From positions 1-61,901 of the IMG/VR virus record IMGVR_UViG_3300022918_000013: 61,901 bases of DNA, one strand, 5' to 3'. Within the stretch, counting starts at the first letter, position 1. Each line of letters begins with the position of its first letter. Under the pieces are notes generated by a model. The model had not been told where the DNA came from. It was given only the letters and a program-made list of their open reading frames with translations, and did no database searches. Shown here piece after piece: positions 5,479 through 61,901 of the stretch. Source of the DNA: a virus. The position numbers and the translations under genes are program-made.

Positions 5479-6804
5479 ATGGCAGGCAAAATTACAGACT
5501 TAACAGAACTGACGAGCGGCAATTTAGCCGACGCGGATCTTGCTGAAGTGGTGGACACTTCCGATACGTCGATGGCTCCCACGGGAACCAACAAAAAGGC
5601 GCTTTGGAGTACTATCTGGACTTACATCAAAAGTAAGGCTGACCCCACTTACGCCACCGCAGCCCAAGGCGCTACCGCCGATAGTGCCGTTCAGCCTGGA
5701 GATTTAGCAACAGTCGCCACCTCTGGAAGCGCTTCGGATTTAGGAACGGGCACTTTGCCCGCCGCTCGCTTGCCCGCCCCAGGGACAACCACTCTTGGCG
5801 GCGTAAAGCGTAACACTGGCGCAGGCGGTCAATTCGTCTCCGGCGTTGATACTGATGGGTCTCTGCTTTACAGCACTCCATCAGGAAGCGGAGATGTGGT
5901 AGGGCCTGCGTCTGCAACTGATAACGGCATTCCTCTTTACGACGGGACGACAGGCAAACTGCTCAAAGATAGTACGGTGACTTCTACCGTCTTAACCGTT
6001 CAATCTGCTGGTACTGCCTCAGTTCGTGCCATCGGAACTGGAGGAACAGATGCTTGTGCGGGCAATGACAGCCGCCTTTCTGACGCTCGCATGCCTACTA
6101 GTCACGCTTCTTCTCATGTAACAGGCGGTTCTGACAAAATCCGTGACGCTTCTGCAAGTCAGGACGGCCTAATGACCGCCGCCTACGGAACGAAACTTGA
6201 TGGCATCGAAGCTCTAGCAGACGTGACGGATGCGGGCAATATCGGCCCGGCCATCAACGGAACATCCTCAAAAGGATCTCTCGCTGATGGTGACAAGATC
6301 CCAATTCTTGATTCTGCCGCTTCCAATGTCCTGAAGTACATTCTCGGAAGCACGCTTAAAGCTCTTTTTGCGCTCACTGGTGCAATCACTAGCTCGACAC
6401 TCACGATGACCACGGCGCGGCTTCTTGGGCGCACCACTGGCAGCACTGGCGCTGTTGAGGAACTGACGGTTGGCGGCTCTTTAGTGCTTGCTAGTGGCGT
6501 TCTATCGTCCCGAATGGCTATCGTCACTGAGACAGGAACAACCCGCACTTGGACGACAGCAGATGCGGGCAAGTGGATTCGTTTCACGAACGCCTCGGGT
6601 TGTTCATATACGATTCCAGGCTCAACGGCTTCAGGCGAAGAAGAAACAGCGATTGAGCAAGCTGCCGCCGGTCAAGTTACACTTGTAGAAAGCAGCTTCA
6701 CTATCAACAAGGTTTCGACGCTCAAGACTCGCGTTCAATCTTCCGTCATTGGCCTCAAGTTTGTGAGTTCTAGTGTTGCCACTTTAACGGGAGACACGCA
6801 ATGA
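5479..6804 (+). CDS. Tail fibre-like protein
   Basis: 441 residues with very low charge and many Gly, Ser, Thr and Ala, and repeats of the kind found in trimeric tail-fibre shafts (TLGGVKRNTGAGGQFVSGV, about residues 104 to 122; SHASSHVTGGSDKI). The C-terminal 130 residues form a separate beta-rich tip (TWTTADAGKWIRFTNAS near residue 357). Likely binds the cell surface. It is followed with a 4-nt overlap by another beta-rich protein. No chaperone-type cleavage motif was recognised. Confidence 0.75.
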   Translation: MAGKITDLTELTSGNLADADLAEVVDTSDTSMAPTGTNKKALWSTIWTYIKSKADPTYATAAQGATADSAVQPGDLATVATSGSASDLGTGTLPAARLPAPGTTTLGGVKRNTGAGGQFVSGVDTDGSLLYSTPSGSGDVVGPASATDNGIPLYDGTTGKLLKDSTVTSTVLTVQSAGTASVRAIGTGGTDACAGNDSRLSDARMPTSHASSHVTGGSDKIRDASASQDGLMTAAYGTKLDGIEALADVTDAGNIGPAINGTSSKGSLADGDKIPILDSAASNVLKYILGSTLKALFALTGAITSSTLTMTTARLLGRTTGSTGAVEELTVGGSLVLASGVLSSRMAIVTETGTTRTWTTADAGKWIRFTNASGCSYTIPGSTASGEEETAIEQAAAGQVTLVESSFTINKVSTLKTRVQSSVIGLKFVSSSVATLTGDTQ

Positions 6805-28720: not shown

Positions 28721-29029
28721 TCATTCAGTCGGCGGTTGAGGTTTCGTTATCGGCATCCAGTAGTCAAATCCATCAACGCGAGTCCAATAGACTTTGGTAA
28801 GGCTATTACCCCCATTTCGACAGACCCAAACATGGCCAGATCTATCCGCATCTTTTTCTTTAGGAAGTCTTACTTCTAAAGAAATCCACCTCGGCCAAAA
28901 CGCCTCCAGTATACCCTTAGCCAAGCATCGCCAGTCGTCTTTGGATGCCTCGGTAAGCATCGCCGGATCGCTGCCTTTTTCGTGCGACCACATGTAGGAC
29001 GCTAGTTGCTCGGTGGTTGGTTGGTTCAT
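28721..29029 (-). CDS. DUF551-like protein, second copy
   Basis: 102 residues. Ends with the same signature: WISLEVRLPKEKDADRSGHVWV, a divergent middle and YWMPITKPQPP. Directly upstream of the first DUF551 gene. Confidence 0.7.
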   Translation of the reverse strand: MNQPTTEQLASYMWSHEKGSDPAMLTEASKDDWRCLAKGILEAFWPRWISLEVRLPKEKDADRSGHVWVCRNGGNSLTKVYWTRVDGFDYWMPITKPQPPTE

Positions 29030-29400
29030 GCTAGTTTAATCCTGTTTCTCCAATTTCTATATTCTCCCGCATGTGCAAAGCCAAGTCTCTTGGCTGCCCT
29101 CTCGTCCTTCTCATGCTTCAGAAATTGCGCAAAGCTATCGAAGCAATCAGCAGCTTCGCGATACCTTCTATACCGCTCTTGAGCGCGAGTCATCTTTGGA
29201 ACCTTTCCCATTCCTAAGTATGTCACCTCGCTCGTTGGGTGAAATGGTCCACGTGGTTTTTTCTCTCCATCGAAATGAACCTCAATGTACTGATTGATGG
29301 CTTTGGTGATGACGCCATTCAATCCGCCTATATTGACGCGCCTGCCTCGCTCAGCAGGAACGCCATAGTAAGTGCGGATGTATTCGAATGGATCATTCAT
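29026..29400 (-). CDS. Conserved accessory protein (cassette A copy)
   Basis: 124 residues. Opens with a strand-rich segment (YYGVPAERGRRVNIGGLNGV) of the kind that coordinates a nucleic acid or small ligand, then a basic helical half (MTRAQERYRRYREAADCF). Nearly identical over most of its length to the protein at 34520..34891, with high DNA identity, so the duplication is recent. Confidence 0.7.
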   Translation of the reverse strand: MNDPFEYIRTYYGVPAERGRRVNIGGLNGVITKAINQYIEVHFDGEKKPRGPFHPTSEVTYLGMGKVPKMTRAQERYRRYREAADCFDSFAQFLKHEKDERAAKRLGFAHAGEYRNWRNRIKLA

Positions 29401-34194: not shown

Positions 34195-34523
34195 CCCTCT
34201 CCCTCCGTTGGCGGCTTCGGCAGGGGAAGGAAGTGGGTGGGCTCACAAGTGACAGCGTACGCATCTTCAAGAGAAGCACGCCAAAACCCATTTACGCACA
34301 CGCCAACGCCAGCAGACACGCCGAGACCGCCATTTATCTCACCCTCCCAAGGTCCAAAGATTATCGCTTTAGCATCCTTGTGGGCATCCTCGACAGGACG
34401 CCACTTAGTCTTCTCCATCTCAGCCTCCAGCGCCTCGATAAGCTCCTTGATCGGCCCTTGGGACTGCATCCCAGCGTGTGTTGGATACCAGCGTTTGATT
34501 TGTTCTAGGCGGGTGGCGGTCAT
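34191..34523 (-). CDS. DUF551-like protein (cassette B)
   Basis: 110 residues from ATG 34523 (ATGA overlap). KWRPVEDAHKDAKAIIFGP and CEPTHFLPLPKPPTEGE are the DUF551 hallmarks. Counterpart of the genes at 28384 and 28721. Confidence 0.7.
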   Translation of the reverse strand: MTATRLEQIKRWYPTHAGMQSQGPIKELIEALEAEMEKTKWRPVEDAHKDAKAIIFGPWEGEINGGLGVSAGVGVCVNGFWRASLEDAYAVTCEPTHFLPLPKPPTEGEG

Positions 34524-34891
34524 GGTGATAAAGATCTCCTCCAATTTCTGTATTGCGAAGCGTCGCTAAATCCCAAGCGCTTAGCGGCTCGCTCGTCTTT
34601 TTCATGTAGAAGAAATTGCCAAAAGCTATCGAAGCAATCGGCAACTTCGCGGTACCTCCTGTATCGCTCTTGAGCACGGGTCATCTTTGGAACATCACCC
34701 ATTCCGAGATATGTAACCTCGCTCGTTGGGTGAAATGGCCCGCGTGGTTTCTTATCGCCATCGAAATGAACTTCGATGTACTGATTGATAGCTTTGGTAA
34801 TAACGCCATTCAATCCGCCGATGTTGACGCGACGACCTCGCTCGGCTGGCACTCCGTAATAAGTGCGGATGTATTCGAATGGGTTATTCAC
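34520..34891 (-). CDS. Conserved accessory protein (cassette B copy)
   Basis: 123 residues, nearly the same as the product of 29026..29400 (shared start EYIRTYYGVPAERGRRV and MTRAQERYRRYRE). Differences cluster in the last 30 residues. Unknown function. Confidence 0.7.
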   Translation of the reverse strand: MNNPFEYIRTYYGVPAERGRRVNIGGLNGVITKAINQYIEVHFDGDKKPRGPFHPTSEVTYLGMGDVPKMTRAQERYRRYREVADCFDSFWQFLLHEKDERAAKRLGFSDASQYRNWRRSLSP

Positions 34892-42616: not shown

Positions 42617-42949
42617 CTAAGCGAGCTTTGCCAATTTCTCCTGAGCTTCGATAAGCTGGTTCTTCCACTGCTGAAGCTTCACAGAGTCAAGGGTGCGCTG
42701 TATACGCTCCCATTCATTCCGGCCGGAAACAGGCTTCGAATCAATTTTTGATTCCAGGGAATAAATAAGAGAAGGAAGCTCCTTCATATCACGGTTGCAC
42801 TTCTCGATACGACGAGAACGGCGACGCGCTTTGTGAGCGATTTCAGCGTCAGTGAGAGCGCCAGAGATAGGCAGCCCAAAGCTAGAATGGCCGTTTGGAT
42901 AGTTGCGGTTTTCGATGCGGCGAATGAAACGATTTTTTGCGTGTGTCAT
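42617..42949 (-). CDS. Basic protein, first gene of the leftward operon
   Basis: 110 residues. Basic N-terminus (AKNRFIRRIENRNYPNGHSS, ARRRSRRIEK) then a helical acidic/basic part. First gene after the divergent region, hence probably immediate-early. May bind nucleic acid. No family recognised. Confidence 0.6.
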   Translation of the reverse strand: MTHAKNRFIRRIENRNYPNGHSSFGLPISGALTDAEIAHKARRRSRRIEKCNRDMKELPSLIYSLESKIDSKPVSGRNEWERIQRTLDSVKLQQWKNQLIEAQEKLAKLA

Positions 42950-43004
42950 ATTGCTATGTGTGTTTGATGTTTTGGTTTAACGGTTTGTTTTCCGTTACGA
43001 CCAA

Positions 43005-43032
43005 ATCCTACCGCGCTTTAGAGATAGCGCAA
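43005..43032 (-). promoter_or_regulatory. Candidate leftward early promoter
   Basis: On the leftward strand TTGCGC, 16 nt, TAGGAT, giving a start near 42998 and a leader of about 50 nt. The leader can form TAACGG/CCGTTA (42978-42997). Both boxes match four of six sigma70 positions. The upstream dyads at 43049 and 43115 support a regulated promoter. Confidence 0.4.
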
Positions 43033-43048
43033 TCGCGATTTCGTTATT

Positions 43049-43071
43049 GAGCATGTCAGTTCGGTATGCTC
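43049..43071. promoter_or_regulatory. Dyad 1 in the divergent region
   Basis: GAGCAT-n11-ATGCTC, a 23-bp perfect-arm dyad about 20 bp upstream of the leftward promoter, a probable operator. Confidence 0.45.
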
Positions 43072-43114
43072 AGGCAAAGTTTATTTCATACTGACTTGGC
43101 ACGGTTCTTGAAGT

Positions 43115-43137
43115 GTCTAATTGGACGACGATTAGAC
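43115..43137. promoter_or_regulatory. Dyad 2 in the divergent region
   Basis: GTCTAAT-n9-ATTAGAC, also 23 bp with seven-base arms, centred 66 bp from dyad 1. The arms differ from dyad 1, so a different regulator or a transcription signal is possible. Confidence 0.45.
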
Positions 43138-43142
43138 GGATT

Positions 43143-43352
43143 TTAGATGGTTGACTTTGGGGGTGGAAAGGCGATTATCAACTCCTCTAGCTCTTCCTGA
43201 GGCCCTTGTGAGTGTCCGCCAAAGACTTTGCTCGCAGGGCTTTTAATGCGTTCGTAGTGTAGGATTGCACATCCCCGACAACGGGAAAGACTTGGTGAAA
43301 CTCCAGGTGGACGCTCCACTTTAAAGGTTCCTTCCCGGTGAAAAGAGGCCAT
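43143..43352 (-). CDS. Doubtful 69-residue protein
   Basis: Frame starting MASFHREGTFKVERPPGVSP with a CRGC pair and an acidic end. No ribosome-binding site precedes the ATG, and the opposite strand carries hairpins (GTGGA-CGC-TCCAC near 43307). Could be a small zinc protein or a structured noncoding segment. Confidence 0.3.
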   Translation of the reverse strand: MASFHREGTFKVERPPGVSPSLSRCRGCAILHYERIKSPASKVFGGHSQGPQEELEELIIAFPPPKSTI

Positions 43353-43412
43353 GGGACTCTTCAGAAATGATAGCCGGGGAGGTCATTTAGATTCTGCATT
43401 TCACAATTCCGC

Positions 43413-43440
43413 TTGACCGGGCGGCGGGAGGGTGGATAAT
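43413..43440 (+). promoter_or_regulatory. Strong sigma70-like promoter for a small RNA
   Basis: TTGACC, 16 nt, GATAAT: five of six matches in each box. Start expected near 43447. A terminator 60 to 95 nt downstream and no reading frame between them point to a small RNA. Confidence 0.65.
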
Positions 43441-43446
43441 CGGCGC

Positions 43447-43541
43447 ATCACCAATAGGTTTTGCGCTGTGGAGCGGTGCAATCCGACCCACTGCAAAACC
43501 GCACTGAGGCCCGGCGTCGCTCCACGACTACGGGCCTTTTT
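43447..43541 (+). ncRNA. Small structured RNA with complementary hairpin loops
   Basis: About 95 nt from the promoter start to the T run. Hairpin 1: GGTTTTGC (43457) with GCAAAACC (43493). Hairpin 2 is the terminator. GTGGAGCG (43468-43475) in loop 1 is the exact complement of CGCTCCAC (43518-43525) in the terminator loop, allowing an 8-bp loop-loop contact. CGCTCCAC also occurs upstream at 43312. Possibly an antisense RNA like phage C4 RNAs; no known family is claimed. Confidence 0.6.
43507..43541 (+). terminator. Rho-independent terminator of the small RNA
   Basis: AGGCCCG/CGGGCCT, 7 bp, with a 17-nt loop and five T residues. Ends the small RNA and insulates the larger structured region. 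Confidence 0.8.
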
Positions 43542-43550
43542 GTGTCGGTT

Positions 43551-43580
43551 TTGCTAGCTCTCAAAGTTTAAGGCTCTAAA
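43551..43580 (+). promoter_or_regulatory. Weak candidate promoter for the large RNA
   Basis: TTGCTA, 18 nt, TCTAAA: four of six matches in each box. It lies just after the terminator and in front of the structured region, so some promoter is expected nearby. Confidence 0.25.
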
Positions 43581-44340
43581 AAAGCTCGGAGGTATGAGAG
43601 GGAATCGTTATCAGTTGAGTGATTTGAAAGTAGAGTTGAGCGGACACTTGGAGAAGCATTGGGGACTTCCTGGCCTGTCCGGTTTAGCAGCGGGTTCGAA
43701 TCCCGCCTTGTGTAGTAGGGACGCCTACACCGCTCAACTCTGCTTTCGGTCATGATTTGAAGGAAGATTTCAGGGGCGGCGTGGAATGTAGACACGCAAA
43801 GACAAAGCAGCATGTGCAATGGTCCTCAACAAAGTTGCGAATACGGCGGATACGCCTAGCAGCACGCGAGGCGTCTGGAAGTACTGCCCCCAGCAGGGAT
43901 TGACGAACCTGCCCCCTGAAACCTTCCTTCTGTCAGAGTTTGAAGATTGTGTTCTGCGGCGGTGCGAAGAAGTCATACTCACACGCAAGAGCCGATTGAT
44001 CGTCGGTGTGCCCTTTGGTGGATAGACGCGAGAAATCGCCAAGTAAGAAGCCAAAAAGCTGGTGTAATGCCCAGCCCGCAGAACACAGTTTCCGCTCCAG
44101 TAGAAACGGTACGGAAGGGCCTGACTGAGATTTAAGCCCGCAGCGCACTGGAGCAATCCAGAACCTCGCATCCTTACTCCAGCCGATTCCACCCACGGAA
44201 TCAATTAGATGTGCGCCGTCTGGTTGGATGCGATCCCTTCAGTGGGATGTTGGACCCCTCAGACTCGCTTCCTACGCGAAAGAGATTTCACTAGCACGGA
44301 CTCCTTCAAAGGGAGAAACCGTGCCGTGTTCCTACACCCG
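43560..44340 (+). ncRNA. Putative large ornate noncoding RNA
   Basis: About 780 nt without a convincing gene on either strand but with a chain of exact short stems: CTCTCA/TGAGAG, the 12-bp AGAGTTGAGCGG helix (43632/43730), GCGTG/CACGC, GGCG-GATA-CGCC, ACGC/GCGT, GCAGG/CCTGC, CTCCAGT/ACTGGAG, CGCATCC/GGATGCG enclosing GATTCC/GGAATC, ATCCC/GGGAT and GCACGG/CCGTGC. It contains a tRNA-like T-arm. Size, phage location and tRNA link recall GOLLD or ROOL RNAs; I cannot align them here. Ends are approximate; strand inferred from flanking rightward signals. Confidence 0.55.
43632..43741 (+). ncRNA. tRNA-like five-way junction within the large RNA
   Basis: Closed by a perfect 12-bp helix. Inside lie GAAG-CATTGGGGA-CTTC (D-arm-like with GG in the loop), CTGG-CCTGT-CCGG (short arm with a five-base loop where an anticodon would be), GCGGG-TTCGAAT-CCCGC (canonical T-arm) and TGTAG/CTACA. 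There is no 7-nt anticodon loop and no CCA, so it cannot be a decoding tRNA; it looks like a tRNA mimic. Confidence 0.55.
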
Positions 44341-44391
44341 CAAGCCTATCGAAAGTAGATCACCCAAACCAACCCAGAGAGAACCAAGATT

Positions 44392-45069
44392 ATGAGCAAC
44401 ACAGTCACATACGAAGGAGAAGCGGGACTTTTTAGCGAACGCCTGAGAGCAAGAGCTGAAGGTTTCATCGTTGGGCAACAGTACCAAGTTCAACAGGCAA
44501 TGAGGGGCACATTTCACACCTCTTATGTCATCGTTGGCAAGCCTGGAACATGGAACTCAGTTCTGTTTAAGGCGAGTGAATCACTGCCGATGATCGACAC
44601 CTATTATCATAGTGCCACCTCAGAGCCACAGCCCAACGTGGTTCAATCGGATTTCTCTGCCACATCGTATGATCCAGGCCCTTCAATAGACTCCTCACCG
44701 GGAGACTTTTCGAGCGGTGGCGGTGATTTTGGAGGAGCCGGGATGGAGATAAAGGAGGGGCTGAATTTTTTAAACCCAGAGCAGTGCAAGTTCGTTCATT
44801 TCGACTGGGTTGTCACAAATCCACCCTGGTCAAAGGTCAGGGAGTTCCTTCAGCGTTCAATGGAGGTAGCGGATAACATCGTCTTCCTTATGACGGTCAA
44901 CCATTGCTGGACAAAAGCCCGTGTGCGCGATGTAAAGCAGGCAGGATTCGGCCTCAAAGAGATACTGCTATGCGATATGCCAAAGGAGTTTCCACAGTCC
45001 GGCTTTCAACTCGGTGCAATGCATTGGCAGCGGGGATGGACCGGAGACATTAAATTGAGCAGTCTGTAA
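44392..45069 (+). CDS. Adenine-methyltransferase-like protein with replaced N-terminal half
   Basis: 225 residues. The C-terminal half has the N6-adenine methyltransferase motif IV in VVTNPPWSK (about residue 142) followed by VADNIVFLMTVNHCW and GFGLKEILLCDMP. The SAM-binding motif I is not visible. The N-terminal 115 residues are unrelated (an SH3-like start, then a Ser/Gly-rich linker). It may be an inactive or partner-dependent enzyme. Its leader GAACCAAGATT before the ATG is identical to that of the next gene. Confidence 0.6.
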   Translation: MSNTVTYEGEAGLFSERLRARAEGFIVGQQYQVQQAMRGTFHTSYVIVGKPGTWNSVLFKASESLPMIDTYYHSATSEPQPNVVQSDFSATSYDPGPSIDSSPGDFSSGGGDFGGAGMEIKEGLNFLNPEQCKFVHFDWVVTNPPWSKVREFLQRSMEVADNIVFLMTVNHCWTKARVRDVKQAGFGLKEILLCDMPKEFPQSGFQLGAMHWQRGWTGDIKLSSL

Positions 45070-53133: not shown

Positions 53134-56100
53134 ATGCCCAATAACTACCTCCCTATCCCCGAAGAGGAGCGCGACGCCTATCAGGCTAGCAGGCTCGAAC
53201 GCTCAAGCAATGGGAAGGGCGCATTAGATGCCTTCGGGTCAGCGGGTGATGACGTGGCGACTATCTCCGCTGGTAAACCTATCCGCTATGTGCCGCAACC
53301 GACCGGACAGCTTCAAGAGATCCTACCTCCATCAGGCGCGCCTAACTTCGTTCAACGCAGTGGTTCAAAGGTTATTGAAGATCCGCTAACCGGCGAGCCG
53401 TACATTCCTGACTCCGCCTCTCCGTATGGTTATACTAGTGCCTACGATCAAGCCAAGCAGAGCACGGTTAAGGGCGACATTGTGGCAAACGTCCCTGGCT
53501 ATGGCCGTCGAGTGATTGGCCGTGATCCAGTGGCACAAGAGAAGGAGGAAACGAAAGCTAAAGCGGCAGCACTCGCTGACCAGTACCGCGCTGAAGGTCG
53601 CCCTTTCTACGTCTCGAAGGTGGATGGACTGCCAAAACCTAAACATCGACCTGGCGAATGGGAAGCAATCCAAGCGGCCAAGGAAGAGAAGAAAGCTAGT
53701 GGCGAAGAGGCTAAACGTGCGGCTCTGCTTACTGCTGATCCTTCAATCAAGAAGCGCCCCGACAAGGAGATTAAAGCCCTCAAGGAAGAAGCCGAAGCTG
53801 GCGACGCTATGCTTGCGGCTAAGGCTGACCCCGCAAATCCTGCGGTAGCGGCTGCCTTGCAAAAGGCTGAACAAGCCAAGGCTATTCTTGCTCAAGAGGA
53901 GAACGCCAAGGAAATCAAACAGCAGCTCGCTACTCAAGCGTGGGAAGCTCGGTTGCGCCGTGATGCGCCGGACCTATGGAAGGAGCGCCAGAAAGCTAAG
54001 CTGGCAGACATGCCACGTGAGGAGTTGCAAAAGACGATTCCGACCTTGCAGGCGCAGATCCAAGAGAAGGTAGCAGCTACCACAGAGCGCGCCGCTCAAC
54101 TACGCGACAAGCAGGCCGTATTTGAGTCTGAGTACAAAGCGGTTGAGGAGCAAGAAGCCAAGCAGCGCACTATTGGTATCAATGCGGCGCAGCTTGCTAA
54201 GTTTGCCGCTGAGAAAGAGCGGATCAACTTTTCTGCTAATCAATGGCTAGGCGAAAACCAAGACCTACTGGAAGAAATCAAGGTAGGCCAGGCTGATGTT
54301 GAAAACGAAACTGAACTGGCTAATGAGGCGATCACTACTCATAACGCCAAGGTAAAAGCTGAACGCACGGACACTCTGGAGAAGCTGAAGGCTGTTCCAC
54401 AAACCGCGCCGATTGCTGATAAACTGGCAAAGCTTGACTCTGAATACGAGCAACGGATTGCTCAATGGGAGGCGCAATATCCAGACAATCAGACACCCGC
54501 CGCTCAGGCTGGCTACAAGGCTATTGACGAAGAGTTCAAAGCTAAGAATCAAGAGGCGGCAACTGAAGCCGAACAAGCACTTCAAAAGGTGCCAGCCAAG
54601 AAGGTAGAGCAACCCGACAAGCCTTTCTTCGACCTTGGCAATACCGTTGACGCTATTGGTGATGTTATCAAAGGTATCACAGTTACAGTTCCAGCGGCAT
54701 ATCGCCAGCTCCGCGAGGGGCTTGTTCGCCCTGACCAATACTCACCAGAGGCTAAAGCAGCCTTTGCGGCGGCGGATGCCTACTCGCAAGAGATGCAGGC
54801 TAAGACGGCGGCGTTACAAGCCCAAGGTAAAAGCGACTCAGTAAGTGAGTCCTTCCGTGAAGCTGGCCCGAGTTTGGGTTTCACAGGCGTATCTCTAGGC
54901 GCTTCCATGCTTGGCGGCGCTGGTACTGGCGTTGTTGCTGGCTCGGTCGTCCCTGGTCTAGGCAATACAACAGGCGCTATTGTTGGAGCTGTGGGTGGCG
55001 CTGCCGCATCAGCCCCAACCGCCTACCGAATGGCAGGCGCTGGCTTCTTAGATGGAGCGTTCAAGAAGATTGAGGCGGAGAAGGGCAGGCCACTTACTGA
55101 ACAAGAGATGGCAGAAGCTTATGACGTACTGTTGCCCATCGCACAGAATACCGCCCTTTGGGAAGCTGGCCCGGAAGCTGTAGCTAACGCTGTCACGCTA
55201 GGCGCAGGCAAGTTCGTGTTTGGCTTTGGCAAGAAAGCCGCGAAAGAGATTGCTGAGTCTGCATTCAAGACGGCTGTTAAGAAAGCGGGCGCGATTGTTG
55301 GCGCTCAAGCCTCCGAGCTTGGAACCGAGACGATTACTCAGGTGGAGCAAGCCGCCGACCAACTCAAGGCGGATGCAATCGCTAAAGGCGCTCCAACTAA
55401 GGGCATCCGGCCTGATTGGAGTCCTTCAGGAGTCGTTAAATCCTTCAAAGAAGTCGCCCCTCAAACTCTCGCTCTAGGCGCTTTAACCGGCGGCGCAGGT
55501 GGAGCGGCCAAACTCGCAACCAATCTACTCCCAAGTGGCAAGAATGCAGAGACACAGACCCAGGATGAAGCCGCCCCAGAGTCGGCAACGGCTGAATCAG
55601 GCCCATACTCGCAGCTTCCAGAGATCCGTGCTGCCGCCGATGAAGCGGTGAAGATGTGGCAACCAGATGTTACGACACTGCCAACACAGTTCCAGCCAAC
55701 ACTAGACAAGGATGGCGTAGAAGTGCCAGCCGAATACAACCCAAAGAGCGCGGCTGAGACTCTTGTACGCGTAGCCCGTGGTGAACCACTGGTTGAAATG
55801 GACTCTGACGCCCAGCTAAAGAACGTGGGTTTAGAGAATCGCGGCGGCAAGATCGTTCCCCAAAAGGGTTTTGGAGCGCCATTCGTGACAATGGAAGGGC
55901 CTAAAGGTGATCAGCCCGTCATCACTGAGGCTGGTATGCAGTTCCTGAAGTCAGACGAAGCTCTTTCGCCTGCCATTGCCGCTATTGGCCTGAGCCCGCA
56001 AGATCGTCGGAAACAAATCAACGCAATACCTAAAGAAAATGAAGATTCTAAGTCGCTTATTCAGGCCACAGACAAAAGTGCAATATCGCCAAGTGCGCCC

Positions 56101-59100
56101 AATTCCACTAGCAACCGAACAGGATCTGAATTGGTTGGCGGACTCGATAGAGAGAACGGAAGCACGATGGAAACTAACCCAAATAAAATTGGGAATGATT
56201 CGGCGCAAACGTCAAAAAGTCAGGACTCCTCAAATAATAAGCAGCTTGCACGACCGCCACTAGGCCAAGCGCCTCCTGCGCAACGCAAAGCCATCGGCAA
56301 AGGTGCCGCTGGTCAGTCGTCTTATGCTGAGTTCGCCACGCCAGACGATGCGGAGGCCTTCACGTATGCGGCTGACTTGGCGCGCTACAATAACAACTCA
56401 AAGAAGGTCAGCGATAACGACCGTGCCCAGGCCGCACAATCAGCCAGGGATAAGCTCGCCCGCATTGCTGAACGCACAGGGCTGAGCGCCGAAGAACTGC
56501 GCCCCATCCTGAAGAGGTATAGCGAGGCGATTCGCCAGACAGCCAAGCGCAAAAAGCAGGGCGAGTCATTCCAAGCACCGACCTTTGAAGAGTTCACTGA
56601 TACCTCTCTGGATATTGCCAAGGAGCCTATTGATCTTTTCCACGGCGGCCTGCCTGAAGACGCGACCCTTGACCAAATCGACCTAGATCGTGCAGGCTCG
56701 CAGCAAAACAAGCGTAACCGTTCTTATGGCGGGTTCTACCTAACTGATGGCAGTAGCCGTGAATGGTCAGACAAGTACGCTAAACAGCGTGGCGCTGCGG
56801 TTCATCGCGTGCGCCTGAAAGCCGGTTCGCGCATTCGTTCCACGCAAGAGAACATTGACCGTTTAAGCGAGAGGCAACGGGCAGAACTAGCGAAGAAGTA
56901 TGACGCTGTTCGGGGCGTTGACACGCTTGGCCGCGCTCAATGGGTATTGCTCAATAAGAACGCTGTAGAGTCATTCGAGGTGGTCAGCGAAAAAGCGGCT
57001 GAGCCCGCAAAGGCCACACAGCCTAAAGCTCCGCATCAAATCTTCCGCGCCGCTGTTGAGGCATCAACGGAACTGACGGCAACTCAGCGCGAGGCAGGAT
57101 TGCGCACGGCAAAAGCAATCGCTCGTTGGGCTCCGATCTTTGCCAAGGCTGGCTTTAGTGTCAAAGCCGGGCAGGTTCGAGGCTCGGGCATTTCCTACAG
57201 CCCGTCAGCACGGTTAATCACCATTGATCCTGTCAATTTCTCGATTGACCTGGCAAAATCCAAGTCACCAAAAGCGCAAGAAGCTCGTATCCAAGCTGTC
57301 TTTCGTGAGGAGCTTTTGCACGGCCTGATTCGTGACAACCTCGGAATCGCTAAGCCTATCGAATGGTGGCGGTCCTTGTCTCCTGAAGCTCAAGCAATCT
57401 CCATCAAGCTCTATGATGGGCGTTTTGACACTGCGAGCATTCCAGATCCAGACAGTGCGGAGGAGTCAAACCGCGCCGATGAGTTTGTGCGGCAACTCTT
57501 CCAAGAGTCGTTTTGGTCCGAAGTGACCGAAGTGGCGGGCAAGAACTTGAACGTGATGGCAGAACTTCGCCGGATATTCGAGGAGCTTCTTGTTGCTTTG
57601 AAGGCTATTCGCCAGACTGCGCCCAAGGCTGTAGCGGCTGAGATTAACGCTGCTGAAAGGCTGATTCGCGCTCGGTTAACTGAGCTGGGAGCGCTGGAGA
57701 AAGAGGCGGAAGTTATTGCTTCCACGCCTATCAATGAGGCTTCTCGTATCCGTGAAGATTTGCCAGAAGCGGCTCCAATTATTGCAGAAATTGACGCTCT
57801 AACAAAGCTTTCGGAAGAACGTCATTCAGAGCTTGGCCCTGATCTAAAAGGTCTTGTCCATCCATCGGAGCTTTTAACGCCAGAGGAAAAGCAACGTGTC
57901 TATGACTTGAAAATGTCATTACGCCCTAAAAGTCGTGAAGAAGCGAAAGCGGACATAATGAAGAAGCGGGCGGCTCGTTTACAGCAGCCCAATCAAGCTC
58001 CCGAAAACACCTCCACATCATCTTCCGGCGTCCTCGGCACCATCACAGACTCTGGTAGCGTAACGACCGTCAAAGTCCGCGACCTTGCGAAGGCAAATCA
58101 TGGCGACTTCCGCGAGATTGCCAGCAACGAGGACTTCACGAAGGATTTCCGCTATAACGACACGACCAAGGAAGTCTTTTGGTGGAATCTGGACAAGATC
58201 ACGCCCGAAGATAAGCAGAAGGTAAGTGACTGGCTAGAAGCTCAAGGCAAGACGGTTGCTCGTCATCGTGGCGTGAAGTCTTCAGATGAGACTTACCGGC
58301 GTGCGCATGGGGCTTTGAGTGCTCCTGTGAATAGTCCTGACAAGCCTCTAGCTGTTGTCCATAACCTGAGTATTGCAAATCTCCGCCATGCCTTAAAGGT
58401 GGGTGGATTGCCAGTGCCATCATTAGCCGTTATCCGCGCCGATTTGAGCGGTTTTGATAGCTTTGGAGAGGTGACGTTGATTGCCAATCCTGATCTAATC
58501 GACCCGCAAAAGAACAAGGCATCTAAGGTGTTTAATGCGGATGTTTATTCGCCTCGTTATCCAACGGTTAAAATCTTGTTCAAGCCTTCGGACTTTAATA
58601 AAATAGCCAGTGCATTCAAGCCTTGGAGTGAGGAATTAAAAACCATCCCTAAACTTGGTTACTCCTGGAGTGTTGAAAGCGCTGTTGATTCAATCAAAGA
58701 TGACGGTTATGAGCGGTCTGGAAATAATCCGCTGGTCGGATACTCATACTTGAGAGACAAAGGACTAATTGATCCTCCAACCGCAGAAGATGGCAACTCA
58801 AGTTTCAATGAGGCAGTGTACAGGAAGGCACGTGACTACCGGGATGAAATTACTTCATGGGTTGAAGAGAAGATTCTTGCAGCAGGCGTAGAACCTGTGG
58901 AGAAGATTTTCGATGGATTCACAAACTCAGGAAATAAGAGGTATCTGCCGCATGATCTAGATACCGTTGTCAAGATCCTAAAGCGAGGGCTGAAGGATGG
59001 GGAGGGATTCAATTATGGAGTGCCCTCTATTCGTGCAGCCAATGCTAAACCATTCCGCACACTCAAAGCTATCCAAGAGTCACGCAATCATATTGTGACT

Positions 59101-61901
59101 AAGGATGAAATGGAAGAGTTGAAAAAGGAAGTTAACGAAGAGTTCGTTAAGCTTGCTGAACATGCTTTATCTATTAGATCCTCAAAACCTCGTTTTGGTG
59201 GCCTTGATGCTATTAGCGATGACATGAAGGCGCTGGCAAAAGGCGGCTCAACCAATATCACGTATTTACGGGAGATGTATCCAGATAGTGACATCTTCAA
59301 CGAAATGCGGACATTTTTGGATAAGCTCAGGCATCTGCCAACCGAGTACTTTGAAAGTAAGATTCAGAGAGCAGTGTATTTAAATGAGTTTGGGGCAGCG
59401 GTTGTTCCTGACTCCACACCAGAAGACTTACAAGCCACACTAAAGAAGCGTGGTCTTAGCGTTGTGACATACCCTGAAAAGGATGGAGTCGCACGCAAAC
59501 AGGCTGTATTACAGGCAGCACAAGAGAGAGGTGCTTTATTTGCCCCCGGAAACTTCGCCACACCCGAGAACGATTCGCCTGAAGAAATCGAGCGTGCCAA
59601 TGCAATCAACGAGACGGCACAAGCTGACATTGATACGCTGACTGAGGCTGTGGATGGGTTTTTGGCAGCTAGTGAGAACGCAGGCGATGAAGCCCAAGAC
59701 TACGCCAACGCCAATCTCCCTCGCCCTCCAATCATGGAGGAGATGGTTGCACGCGCAGAGACGAAACCAGGAACTTACATTACCCCTGATGCTCTTGGCG
59801 GCACATCCACGCCTCAACGTATCCGCACGTCATTAATTCAATGGCTCGCCAACCAGAACTCCGAAGTTCGCCCGCGTGAAGTTCTGGCTCAAGAGGCTGA
59901 AACCTTCCTTGCGGCCCCAGGTGGTGAGCAAGCCTTAATGCTTGAAATGTTGGATGCGGCGAATGAGCAGCGCCCAATTACAGACGCTATGCAGGTTGCT
60001 TGGCAGGTGTTGCAACCAAAGCTCTACAAGCGAGCCGTTGCCACAGGTAGCGCCCGGCTGATGCGTGAGCACGACGCCTTGGCTTATGCTTACAAAGAGA
60101 TCGGCACTGAGACAGCCCGCTCTCTCGCTGCCCGTCGAGATCCGAATCAGACTCCCACCGAACGATTCCGCGAGGCTATCCGCAACATTGCCCGGACGCC
60201 AACTAACCGCGCCTTGATTCGCCAGATTGATGAAACACAAACGCCATCGGCTAAAGCTCGCAAGGTAAAGGCTCTTGAAAGGAAACTGGCTGATGAATTA
60301 ACCAAGGCTCAGACAAACTCTGAAGAGATCCGCAGTTTGCAAAAAGAACTGGCCGACGAGCGCCGCAAGCCTGACAAAGCCGACGTGATTGCACGCATGG
60401 CCGTTGATGCGCAGAAGCGCACGGATGCAGTTTTAGCCAAGCTTGGGCTCAGTGAATATGATGTAATGCTCGATAACGAGGATCGTTATGCCGCTATGAA
60501 GTCTCAGCCTGTAATGCAGGCGATGGAAGGTCTATCGGTGCAAGATAAAGCCATCGTCACGCAGTTGATGGAGGGTAACTCGCACCGCGCCATCATGCAG
60601 AAGACAGGCGCGAGCTTGCAACACATAGGTGCTCTTCATGAGCAGTTCCGCAACAAACTTGAAGCCCAACTCAAGACATTCCTTGGCGCTCAAGGTAACA
60701 CGCTCATGACGATGATCGAGCAAGGACAGGCAGCTATCCGCGATGGACGCGCAGCCGGTCGTAACATCAAAGGTGAACTGAGTGATCCCGCTGTCCAAAA
60801 AGCAATGACTCAGGCGAACCGTGATGCCATCATGCGTTCGCTGGCTTGGCTACTGCCAACGGCTCGCTCTGTGAATAGCGGCAATCTCAAGCCTGTGACG
60901 GTGGTGATTAGTAAAGTCGGCCCCACTGGACAAAAGGTGCAGAAAGTTACTCTTCACGTCCCATACGACCCCGAGAACGCTAGTCAAGCCTACCGCATCG
61001 CCCGTGAGATGCAGGCGGCGCAGTCAACCAAATACGATAAGGCCTATGAATACTGGATTAACGGCATTCTAAGCGGCCCACAGACTCAGTTCGTCAATAC
61101 GGCTGGCAACTTGGTTTCTACAGCTTGGCACTACGGCTATCAGCGGCCCGTTGAAGGGCTGATGAACATGGTTATGCGCGATCCTGGCGGCGTGCAGATG
61201 GGCGAACAGGGGCGACTTATCAGCGCCCTCCGTCCTGCGCTGGCAGAAGCCTATACAAACGCCATTCAGGCCTTCTCGACTGAGGCTGACACCCTCCGCT
61301 CAATCTACCTCGATCAACCAATTGAGATTAACGCCAAGGATGGCACAATTGACAAGATTGGCGGCGCTCCACGGGCTGCGAACAAAGGCGCGATTGGCCG
61401 CACGATTCGCCTTCCTGGCCGTCTCTTGCGTGCCACGGATGCATTCTTCAAGACTGCAATCGCCCGAATTGAAGTTGGCGCTCTGGCATATCGTCAAGGT
61501 CTAGCTGATGGATTGAATGGCGCGGCGCTTGAGCAATTCGTTCAATCGGAAATCAACACCTATGGCTCTCAATCTTGGCATAAGGCGCTGGCAACCGCTG
61601 AAATCCTGACGTTCCAAGAGGATTCATGGCTTGCAAAAGCTGGTGAATCTATCGTTCGTGGCCGTGGCGCTGAACAAATTCAAAAGAAAGCCTCGAAACT
61701 GCGTCAGCAAGGCAAGATTGATGAGGCGGATGTAATGGAAAATACCGCCAAAGCGCTGGATATTTTTGTGGCTAAACCTTTGGCTTTCCTCTTTCCGTTT
61801 GTCCGCACTCCAGCCAATATTATGCTGACGGGTATTCGTAAGTCTCCCATTGGCTCTCTTGGCGTCCTATTGAATATCATGAATGGTCTGTACCAACAGA
61901 C
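53134..61901 (+). CDS. Giant polyvalent virion protein, N-terminal 2,922 residues
   Basis: Starts MPNNYLPIPEEERDAYQ and runs without stop to the window end, then continues at base 143 (3,287 residues in all). Order: long Ala/Glu/Lys coiled coil (about 120-520); Gly-zipper hydrophobic segment (about 580-635); ADP-ribosyltransferase-like domain (about 1165-1285: DLFHGG, YGGFYLTDGSSREW); REELLHGLI, a peptidase-like motif (about 1391); a large polyvalent-protein domain (about 1706-2136: LAVVHNLSIANLRHALKVGG, YSPRYPTVKI); HTH-like stretch near 2480; and a conserved C-terminal region from about 2641. Likely ejected into the cell to act on host proteins. Confidence 0.8.
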   Translation, partial: MPNNYLPIPEEERDAYQASRLERSSNGKGALDAFGSAGDDVATISAGKPIRYVPQPTGQLQEILPPSGAPNFVQRSGSKVIEDPLTGEPYIPDSASPYGYTSAYDQAKQSTVKGDIVANVPGYGRRVIGRDPVAQEKEETKAKAAALADQYRAEGRPFYVSKVDGLPKPKHRPGEWEAIQAAKEEKKASGEEAKRAALLTADPSIKKRPDKEIKALKEEAEAGDAMLAAKADPANPAVAAALQKAEQAKAILAQEENAKEIKQQLATQAWEARLRRDAPDLWKERQKAKLADMPREELQKTIPTLQAQIQEKVAATTERAAQLRDKQAVFESEYKAVEEQEAKQRTIGINAAQLAKFAAEKERINFSANQWLGENQDLLEEIKVGQADVENETELANEAITTHNAKVKAERTDTLEKLKAVPQTAPIADKLAKLDSEYEQRIAQWEAQYPDNQTPAAQAGYKAIDEEFKAKNQEAATEAEQALQKVPAKKVEQPDKPFFDLGNTVDAIGDVIKGITVTVPAAYRQLREGLVRPDQYSPEAKAAFAAADAYSQEMQAKTAALQAQGKSDSVSESFREAGPSLGFTGVSLGASMLGGAGTGVVAGSVVPGLGNTTGAIVGAVGGAAASAPTAYRMAGAGFLDGAFKKIEAEKGRPLTEQEMAEAYDVLLPIAQNTALWEAGPEAVANAVTLGAGKFVFGFGKKAAKEIAESAFKTAVKKAGAIVGAQASELGTETITQVEQAADQLKADAIAKGAPTKGIRPDWSPSGVVKSFKEVAPQTLALGALTGGAGGAAKLATNLLPSGKNAETQTQDEAAPESATAESGPYSQLPEIRAAADEAVKMWQPDVTTLPTQFQPTLDKDGVEVPAEYNPKSAAETLVRVARGEPLVEMDSDAQLKNVGLENRGGKIVPQKGFGAPFVTMEGPKGDQPVITEAGMQFLKSDEALSPAIAAIGLSPQDRRKQINAIPKENEDSKSLIQATDKSAISPSAPNSTSNRTGSELVGGLDRENGSTMETNPNKIGNDSAQTSKSQDSSNNKQLARPPLGQAPPAQRKAIGKGAAGQSSYAEFATPDDAEAFTYAADLARYNNNSKKVSDNDRAQAAQSARDKLARIAERTGLSAEELRPILKRYSEAIRQTAKRKKQGESFQAPTFEEFTDTSLDIAKEPIDLFHGGLPEDATLDQIDLDRAGSQQNKRNRSYGGFYLTDGSSREWSDKYAKQRGAAVHRVRLKAGSRIRSTQENIDRLSERQRAELAKKYDAVRGVDTLGRAQWVLLNKNAVESFEVVSEKAAEPAKATQPKAPHQIFRAAVEASTELTATQREAGLRTAKAIARWAPIFAKAGFSVKAGQVRGSGISYSPSARLITIDPVNFSIDLAKSKSPKAQEARIQAVFREELLHGLIRDNLGIAKPIEWWRSLSPEAQAISIKLYDGRFDTASIPDPDSAEESNRADEFVRQLFQESFWSEVTEVAGKNLNVMAELRRIFEELLVALKAIRQTAPKAVAAEINAAERLIRARLTELGALEKEAEVIASTPINEASRIREDLPEAAPIIAEIDALTKLSEERHSELGPDLKGLVHPSELLTPEEKQRVYDLKMSLRPKSREEAKADIMKKRAARLQQPNQAPENTSTSSSGVLGTITDSGSVTTVKVRDLAKANHGDFREIASNEDFTKDFRYNDTTKEVFWWNLDKITPEDKQKVSDWLEAQGKTVARHRGVKSSDETYRRAHGALSAPVNSPDKPLAVVHNLSIANLRHALKVGGLPVPSLAVIRADLSGFDSFGEVTLIANPDLIDPQKNKASKVFNADVYSPRYPTVKILFKPSDFNKIASAFKPWSEELKTIPKLGYSWSVESAVDSIKDDGYERSGNNPLVGYSYLRDKGLIDPPTAEDGNSSFNEAVYRKARDYRDEITSWVEEKILAAGVEPVEKIFDGFTNSGNKRYLPHDLDTVVKILKRGLKDGEGFNYGVPSIRAANAKPFRTLKAIQESRNHIVTKDEMEELKKEVNEEFVKLAEHALSIRSSKPRFGGLDAISDDMKALAKGGSTNITYLREMYPDSDIFNEMRTFLDKLRHLPTEYFESKIQRAVYLNEFGAAVVPDSTPEDLQATLKKRGLSVVTYPEKDGVARKQAVLQAAQERGALFAPGNFATPENDSPEEIERANAINETAQADIDTLTEAVDGFLAASENAGDEAQDYANANLPRPPIMEEMVARAETKPGTYITPDALGGTSTPQRIRTSLIQWLANQNSEVRPREVLAQEAETFLAAPGGEQALMLEMLDAANEQRPITDAMQVAWQVLQPKLYKRAVATGSARLMREHDALAYAYKEIGTETARSLAARRDPNQTPTERFREAIRNIARTPTNRALIRQIDETQTPSAKARKVKALERKLADELTKAQTNSEEIRSLQKELADERRKPDKADVIARMAVDAQKRTDAVLAKLGLSEYDVMLDNEDRYAAMKSQPVMQAMEGLSVQDKAIVTQLMEGNSHRAIMQKTGASLQHIGALHEQFRNKLEAQLKTFLGAQGNTLMTMIEQGQAAIRDGRAAGRNIKGELSDPAVQKAMTQANRDAIMRSLAWLLPTARSVNSGNLKPVTVVISKVGPTGQKVQKVTLHVPYDPENASQAYRIAREMQAAQSTKYDKAYEYWINGILSGPQTQFVNTAGNLVSTAWHYGYQRPVEGLMNMVMRDPGGVQMGEQGRLISALRPALAEAYTNAIQAFSTEADTLRSIYLDQPIEINAKDGTIDKIGGAPRAANKGAIGRTIRLPGRLLRATDAFFKTAIARIEVGALAYRQGLADGLNGAALEQFVQSEINTYGSQSWHKALATAEILTFQEDSWLAKAGESIVRGRGAEQIQKKASKLRQQGKIDEADVMENTAKALDIFVAKPLAFLFPFVRTPANIMLTGIRKSPIGSLGVLLNIMNGLYQQ
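61758..61901. repeat. Right copy of the terminal redundancy
   Basis: 144 nt matching bases 1 to 142, with GCTAAACC where the left copy has GCTACC. The gene frame is intact here. Using this copy the unique genome length is about 61,759 bp. Confidence 0.9.

Follow-up and report, generated by a model that had tools for sequence, protein, structure and literature searches.

What is encoded in a phage region that holds no credible gene? The question is raised by an IMG/VR virus contig of 61.9 kb, in which the gap between a leftward gene (42617-42949) and a rightward gene starting at 44392 is devoid of credible genes over the stretch studied here. The whole contig, 61,901 nucleotides, is the DNA that was analysed and is referred to as the window (W). 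A preliminary description had placed a large noncoding RNA with an embedded tRNA mimic at 43560-44340. An RNA in that place is supported; the start is not, as the element begins about 110 nt further left, at 43447, with a terminator-like hairpin included, and the start first proposed leaves out a conserved 5' module (module B). Positions 43447-44390 almost certainly represent a real, selected structured RNA. The element occupies the + strand from 43447 to about 44390 and is modular, with module B followed by module C and a 3' domain (Table 1), and in W it stands at the head of a rightward operon holding terminase genes.

Two leftward reading frames do lie in the region as first described (43568..43819, 83 aa; 43770..44204, 144 aa). 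Compared with two related phages, neither gave a match beyond 20 residues on a conserved 57-nt stem segment, and the DNA conserved between W and a homologous locus, L003, consists of stem arms and not of a reading frame. The gene-free, structured character of the stretch is thus borne out.

Table 1. Coordinates of the RNA element and its parts in the window.
Feature	Position	Strand	Basis or detail
Sigma-70-like promoter, TTGACC-16-GATAAT	43413..43440	+	10/12 consensus matches; consensus match only
Module B: conserved hairpin, pseudoknot, terminator-like hairpin with U tract	43447..43545	+	covariance model R1, W-L096 alignment, fold z
B helix P1, 43457-43464 with 43493-43500	43457..43500	+	2/8 pairs changed on both sides, 100% paired
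B pseudoknot, 43468-43475 (GTGGAGCG) with terminator loop 43518-43525 (CGCTCCAC)	43468..43525	+	5/8 pairs changed on both sides
Terminator-like hairpin, 43506-43513 with 43531-43538, then TTTTTG	43506..43541	+	5/8 pairs changed on both sides
Module C: three tandem paralogous 18-bp helices with variable caps	43620-44097	+	inverted-repeat scan, compensatory changes
Unit 1: outer 3 bp 43620-22/43750-52, internal loop, h1 43626-43643/43730-43747 (18 bp)	43620..43752	+	arms 96-98% identical in L003
tRNA-like tip of unit 1	43644..43714	+	full-length tRNA model match; arms assigned by hand
Unit 2: outer 3 bp 43753-55/43933-35, h2 43759-43776/43913-43930 (18 bp)	43753..43935	+	
Unit 3: outer 3 bp 43936-38/44095-97, h3 43942-43959/44076-44093 (18 bp)	43936..44097	+	
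3' domain up to next gene; begins with CAGTAGAAAC; hairpin 44294-44324	44098..44390	+	

Homologous loci in largely unrelated phages

L003 was retrieved by a protein search with the gene downstream of the W RNA. Three segments of W (43617-43643, 43730-43786 and 43907-43936) are 96-98% identical to it, almost none of the sequence between or flanking them can be aligned, and the conserved segments make up both arms of two long hairpins. When IMG/VR was searched with a degenerate 5'-arm pattern, 59 stretches were returned, and beyond L003 only one of these, L096 (IMGVR_UViG_3300035670_001468, 20.4 kb), has a matching 3' arm, in which 16/18 positions are paired, all Watson-Crick. In L096, tandem helices of 18 and 17 bp lie on the strand of its genes, in the gap after terminase; module B is found upstream of them, and the second helix encloses a tRNA-Met(CAT). 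The order of module B and then helices is common to W, L003 and L096, while the tips differ. The three contigs have little protein content in common, and because L096 has one protein region in common with the others, overall relatedness of the genomes does not account for the RNA locus.

Further searches were less productive. Exact and degenerate junction patterns returned only L003 and chance matches in IMG/VR, one pattern gave chance matches in GTDB genomes (several in coding DNA), and protein-anchored searches gave only L003 and a further contig, L002. BLAST against isolated phages and plasmids found no homologue; the plasmid matches to the L096 query were set aside, as they cover only its tRNA part.

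The surrounding genes offer observations of their own. The gene after the RNA (44392-45069, + strand) has, as its C-terminal half, that of a phage DNA methyltransferase (phrog_799), with the N-terminal half replaced by unrelated sequence where the counterparts in L002 and L003 carry EPCxGDGAF, and its product is perhaps no longer an active methyltransferase. To the left, short leftward reading frames in W (43143-43352, - strand) and L002 (3185-3448, - strand) contain a common motif, GVSPSLSxCRxCAI. Under the W frame, 58 nt (43264-43321) are 84% identical to L002 with several synonymous changes; the frame may be a genuine small gene belonging to the leftward operon. The same 58 nt resembled a cobalamin-riboswitch motif, found no such match in Rfam, may belong to the short frame, and were left out of the RNA. 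Elsewhere in W, a single + strand frame (53134-61901), 2,922 aa long, is still open where the contig ends, and two - strand frames (29026-29400 and 34520-34891), both matching one protein of the L003 contig (70.8% over 120 aa), look like a within-record duplication.

Tandem helices, fold stability and the pseudoknotted 5' module

The helices of module C are exceptional within their own records. A scan for long-range 18-bp inverted repeats (30-400 nt apart, at least 17/18 pairs) returned only h1, h2 and h3 from the whole of W, and the same scan of the L003 record returned its two helices plus one unrelated. Sequence similarity links the 5' arms of the three helices, and where these arms differ the 3' arms compensate; in the first helix alignment, 9/18 stem pairs had changed on both sides. 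With the L096 units added, this count became 13 of 21 unit pairs, reached by none of 500 shuffles, and sliding the partners by one base lowered unit pairing from 97% to 52% or less. These counts lean towards structure, since the units, module B and the 3' hairpin were aligned manually so as to match the proposed helices, and a large part of the covariation lies among paralogous units or just three sequences, from three loci in all. Only three changes separate the stems of W from those of L003, and one of them disrupts a pair in W.

Each unit carries an outer 3-bp stem beyond a small internal loop. Consecutive units abut in W with no spare base between them, and across the loci 0 or 1 unpaired nucleotide separates them. 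The interior of unit 2 is variable, with two small hairpins common to L003 (43779-43797 and 43893-43912, read by hand), and unit 3 was not found in L003 or L096.

Thermodynamic folding points in the same direction. The region 43540-44390 folds more stably than its shuffles (z = -3.2, from only 20 shuffles), the adjoining 43000-43560 gives z = -6.0, and all three loci fold more stably than shuffles; for module B alone, z is -5.4 in W, and -5.4, -6.0 and -4.6 across the three loci. More than ten stems are predicted in the W fold. In a + strand fold scan of 309 windows, 43401-43600 ranked first and 43601-43800 third. The helices contain 5 G-U pairs on the + strand versus 2 A-C mismatches, and because of this excess, a modest sign, the + strand is taken as the RNA strand. 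The T-loop described below also reads correctly only on the + strand.

Module B brings a second, separately conserved structure. Over the three loci, all 71 counted cells are paired and 12 of 24 pairs have changed on both sides (0/500 shuffles), five of these twelve in the 8-bp pseudoknot. Covariation among homologues, which the preliminary description had proposed to look for, is seen as compensatory changes in both the units (13/21) and module B (12/24). The local alignment of B between W and L096 outscores 500/500 shuffles. R1, a covariance model of B, scores 90 bits in W, 63 in L096 and 55 in L003, the three loci from which it was built; the next best match in 222 kb reaches 13.9 bits, in L014, and was rejected as it lies inside a coding gene. 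Against 399 genomes of one phylum R1 found no match, a result of low weight, as that phylum need not include the phage host.

The pseudoknot joins an upstream segment to the terminator loop with different strands in each locus: those of Table 1 in W, GTGCTAG/CTAGCAC in L096 and GTTGCGGG/CCCGCAAC in L003. The distance from the start of the upstream segment to the terminator is 35, 36 and 40 nt in the three loci. In a complementarity search done without the hand-made alignment, the chance of such complementarity to the terminator loop in shuffles was 0.03, 0.026 and 0.0005 for the three loci. Module B has the GC-rich hairpin and T run of an intrinsic terminator, and a T-rich tail follows the hairpin in all three loci. 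The terminator scan flagged the hairpin in L003 and L096; in W it was not flagged, and the hairpin (43506-43538) with TTTTTG was called by sequence. Upstream of B, the promoter-like site of W has a counterpart at the equivalent position in L096 (4678-4705), again with a 16-nt spacer, and none was found in L003.

This arrangement invites a reading as a regulatory leader, in which B would be a conditional terminator, similar to lambda pR'-6S-tR', and C a cis-acting antitermination or attenuation RNA for the downstream genes. A promoter-like site and then a terminator-like hairpin precede C in W and L096, the W element heads the operon with the terminase genes, and in W and L096 the segment engaged in the pseudoknot is partly the same as that paired in the hairpin, so that a switch between the two would be possible. 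Against this, the downstream genes are unrelated between loci, being methyltransferase-like in W and L003 and encoding an uncharacterised 209-aa protein in L096; because the phage genomes are largely unrelated and these genes differ, the RNA is not the leader of one gene. In L003, only one gene follows the RNA before convergent genes, so that neither a leader nor a put-like antiterminator would have a long operon to control. The tips, moreover, are large and variable, and we know of no attenuator with tips of this kind. We consider a leader unlikely.

The 3' domain and the tRNA-like tip

The start of the W 3' domain, CAGTAGAAAC, recurs in L003 at 5480-5489. The 3' hairpins of L003 and L096 are alike by sequence (local score 32 versus a shuffle mean of 17.6) and show compensatory changes, and the W hairpin corresponds to them by position only. 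In L003, 5268-5277 and 5507-5516 form a 10-base perfect complement between the h1 3' arm or helix base and the loop of the 3'-domain hairpin, possibly a tertiary contact or strand exchange. A general contact between h1 and this loop is not claimed, as the W loop, CTGACTGAGA, is only partly complementary and the pairing is not clearly kept.

Directly after the h1 arm in W sits a domain that can be read as a tRNA: an acceptor ACACTTG/CTTGTGT with two U.U mismatches, a D-arm with GG, a shortened anticodon arm and a perfect T-arm. The T-arm GCGGG-TTCGAAT-CCCGC (43690-43706) is present as first described and is the only perfect T-arm of its kind in the 61.9-kb record; L096, likewise, has only one in its record. 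The tRNA covariance model RF00005 aligns with the W tip at full length (1-71), at 17 bits (E = 0.027), below its cut-off of 29 bits. ARAGORN found no tRNA and no tmRNA in W, and with the tmRNA model RF00023 only the 17-nt T-arm matches, at 15.8 bits against the 47 needed for membership. The tRNA-Met(CAT) of L096, by comparison, passes the RF00005 cut-off at 34.1 bits. The embedded tRNA mimic is thus backed weakly by the tRNA model in W, and a recognisable tRNA-Met forms a tip at the homologous locus of L096. Both differ from a free tRNA in topping a long helix without free ends, and the W tip additionally in its two acceptor mismatches and shortened anticodon arm. The domain is one of the variable tips, belonging to unit 1 in W and unit 2 in L096; no tRNA match was found in the L003 tips or in the other tips (74-157 nt).

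Could the units be a decayed tRNA cluster, that is, former tRNA genes whose acceptor stems have been lengthened and which persist as processing signals or as functionless remnants? The two tRNA-like tips fit such an origin, as does the L096 acceptor, which forms the inner part of the helix. The part that is conserved and covaries is the stems and not the tRNA, the remaining tips match no tRNA, L003 appears to keep intact stems and module B with no tRNA in any tip, and module B would be out of place in such a cluster; this origin is quite improbable. Slightly less probable still is a DNA-level element, with the inverted repeats as recombination boundaries, an att site or mobile element ends and the T-arm as a tRNA-gene remnant at an att site: tRNA genes are common integration targets, and recombination that swaps modules would likewise leave nearly identical arms around interiors that have been exchanged, but compensatory changes in stems and pseudoknot and one-strand G-U pairs are expected of RNA, the arms are internal and tandem and not the ends of one unit, and no integrase was found among the subset of proteins scanned.

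Known large RNAs and a proposed role

A structured RNA is the reading to be carried forward, and the question becomes which kind. At gathering thresholds, Rfam returned nothing in W, and with permissive settings only tRNA and tmRNA models touched the region, in its tRNA-like part; the group II intron model RF01998 gave no match. The GOLLD model (RF02032, gathering 150 bits) had no match at E<=10 in the three genomes searched (G000, G001 and G002), nor in the region with permissive filters, and as a control search of 14 genomes gave only sub-threshold matches, no true positive stands behind this negative. The ROOL model (RF03087, gathering 99.1 bits) also had no match at E<=10, the region included, a result weak alone since the control genomes were without a match too. 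By the Rfam models, the RNA is a member of neither family, and it resembles both in kind. The earlier suggestion of a GOLLD or ROOL lineage, or else a new class, is accordingly narrowed: the two covariance models are unmatched, and a new class is favoured.

GOLLD is a phage-encoded RNA of about 800 nt with a complex fold, described with a conserved 3' region, stems P1-P27 and a 14-mer cage (PMC12286853). ROOL is a large RNA of phages or plasmids with pseudoknots and a variable linker that shows little likeness between homologues (PMC12286853). In both, the variable linker lies inside a cage, and in GOLLD this variable part can hold tRNAs, as it sometimes does (PMC12286853). The RNA described here is like GOLLD in its phage location, its size (about 0.6-0.95 kb) and the tRNA in the L096 tip, features that are common to other kinds of RNA and not diagnostic. 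It differs from GOLLD in its conserved core, which is made of module B and tandem 18-bp helices, and from ROOL, which has a single linker, in having several variable stem tips. Phage ICP1 also contains an orf-less region of about 1 kb, similar in size, which gives an abundant noncoding transcript of about 800 nt with no family assigned (PMC7567579). It was rejected as a relative, as the region (L137 4097-5109) has no tandem long-range helices of this kind and no DNA similarity was found in the phage collection.

At the level of sequence, comparison shows stems kept by compensatory changes, tips freely exchanged, and one tip that is a tRNA or tRNA-like. How such an RNA might work can be proposed in outline. 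Transcription would start near 43447; part of it would end at the B terminator, and the rest would read through to give the full RNA, which would fold into a rigid hub displaying its tips. The RNA may then act as a scaffold, as has been proposed of GOLLD and ROOL. Its tRNA-like tip would be either cargo, exposed or enclosed, or a decoy that engages host factors acting on tRNA. The scaffold mechanism is drawn by analogy and is held tentatively. Equally speculative is its fuller form, a modular display platform in which a covarying 18-bp hub would stand behind a pseudoknotted, possibly conditional terminator, and tips, tRNAs included, would be swapped as cargo or decoys, in a class with no kinship to GOLLD or ROOL that would have arrived at a similar job on its own. 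Taken jointly, a large structured noncoding RNA of phages, about 0.6-0.95 kb long, that forms a new class and works as a scaffold is our somewhat favoured description, a judgement that is a compromise between near-certainty about the structured RNA and the doubtful standing of the scaffold.

Very few classes of large bacterial or phage RNAs are known, and what GOLLD and ROOL do in phages has yet to be settled. Another class, folded differently and with tRNAs in its variable part, would mean, if true, that phages reached large RNAs with tRNA cargo more than once. Uniform stems combined with exchangeable tips would also present a simple architecture for testing the role of tRNA cargo.
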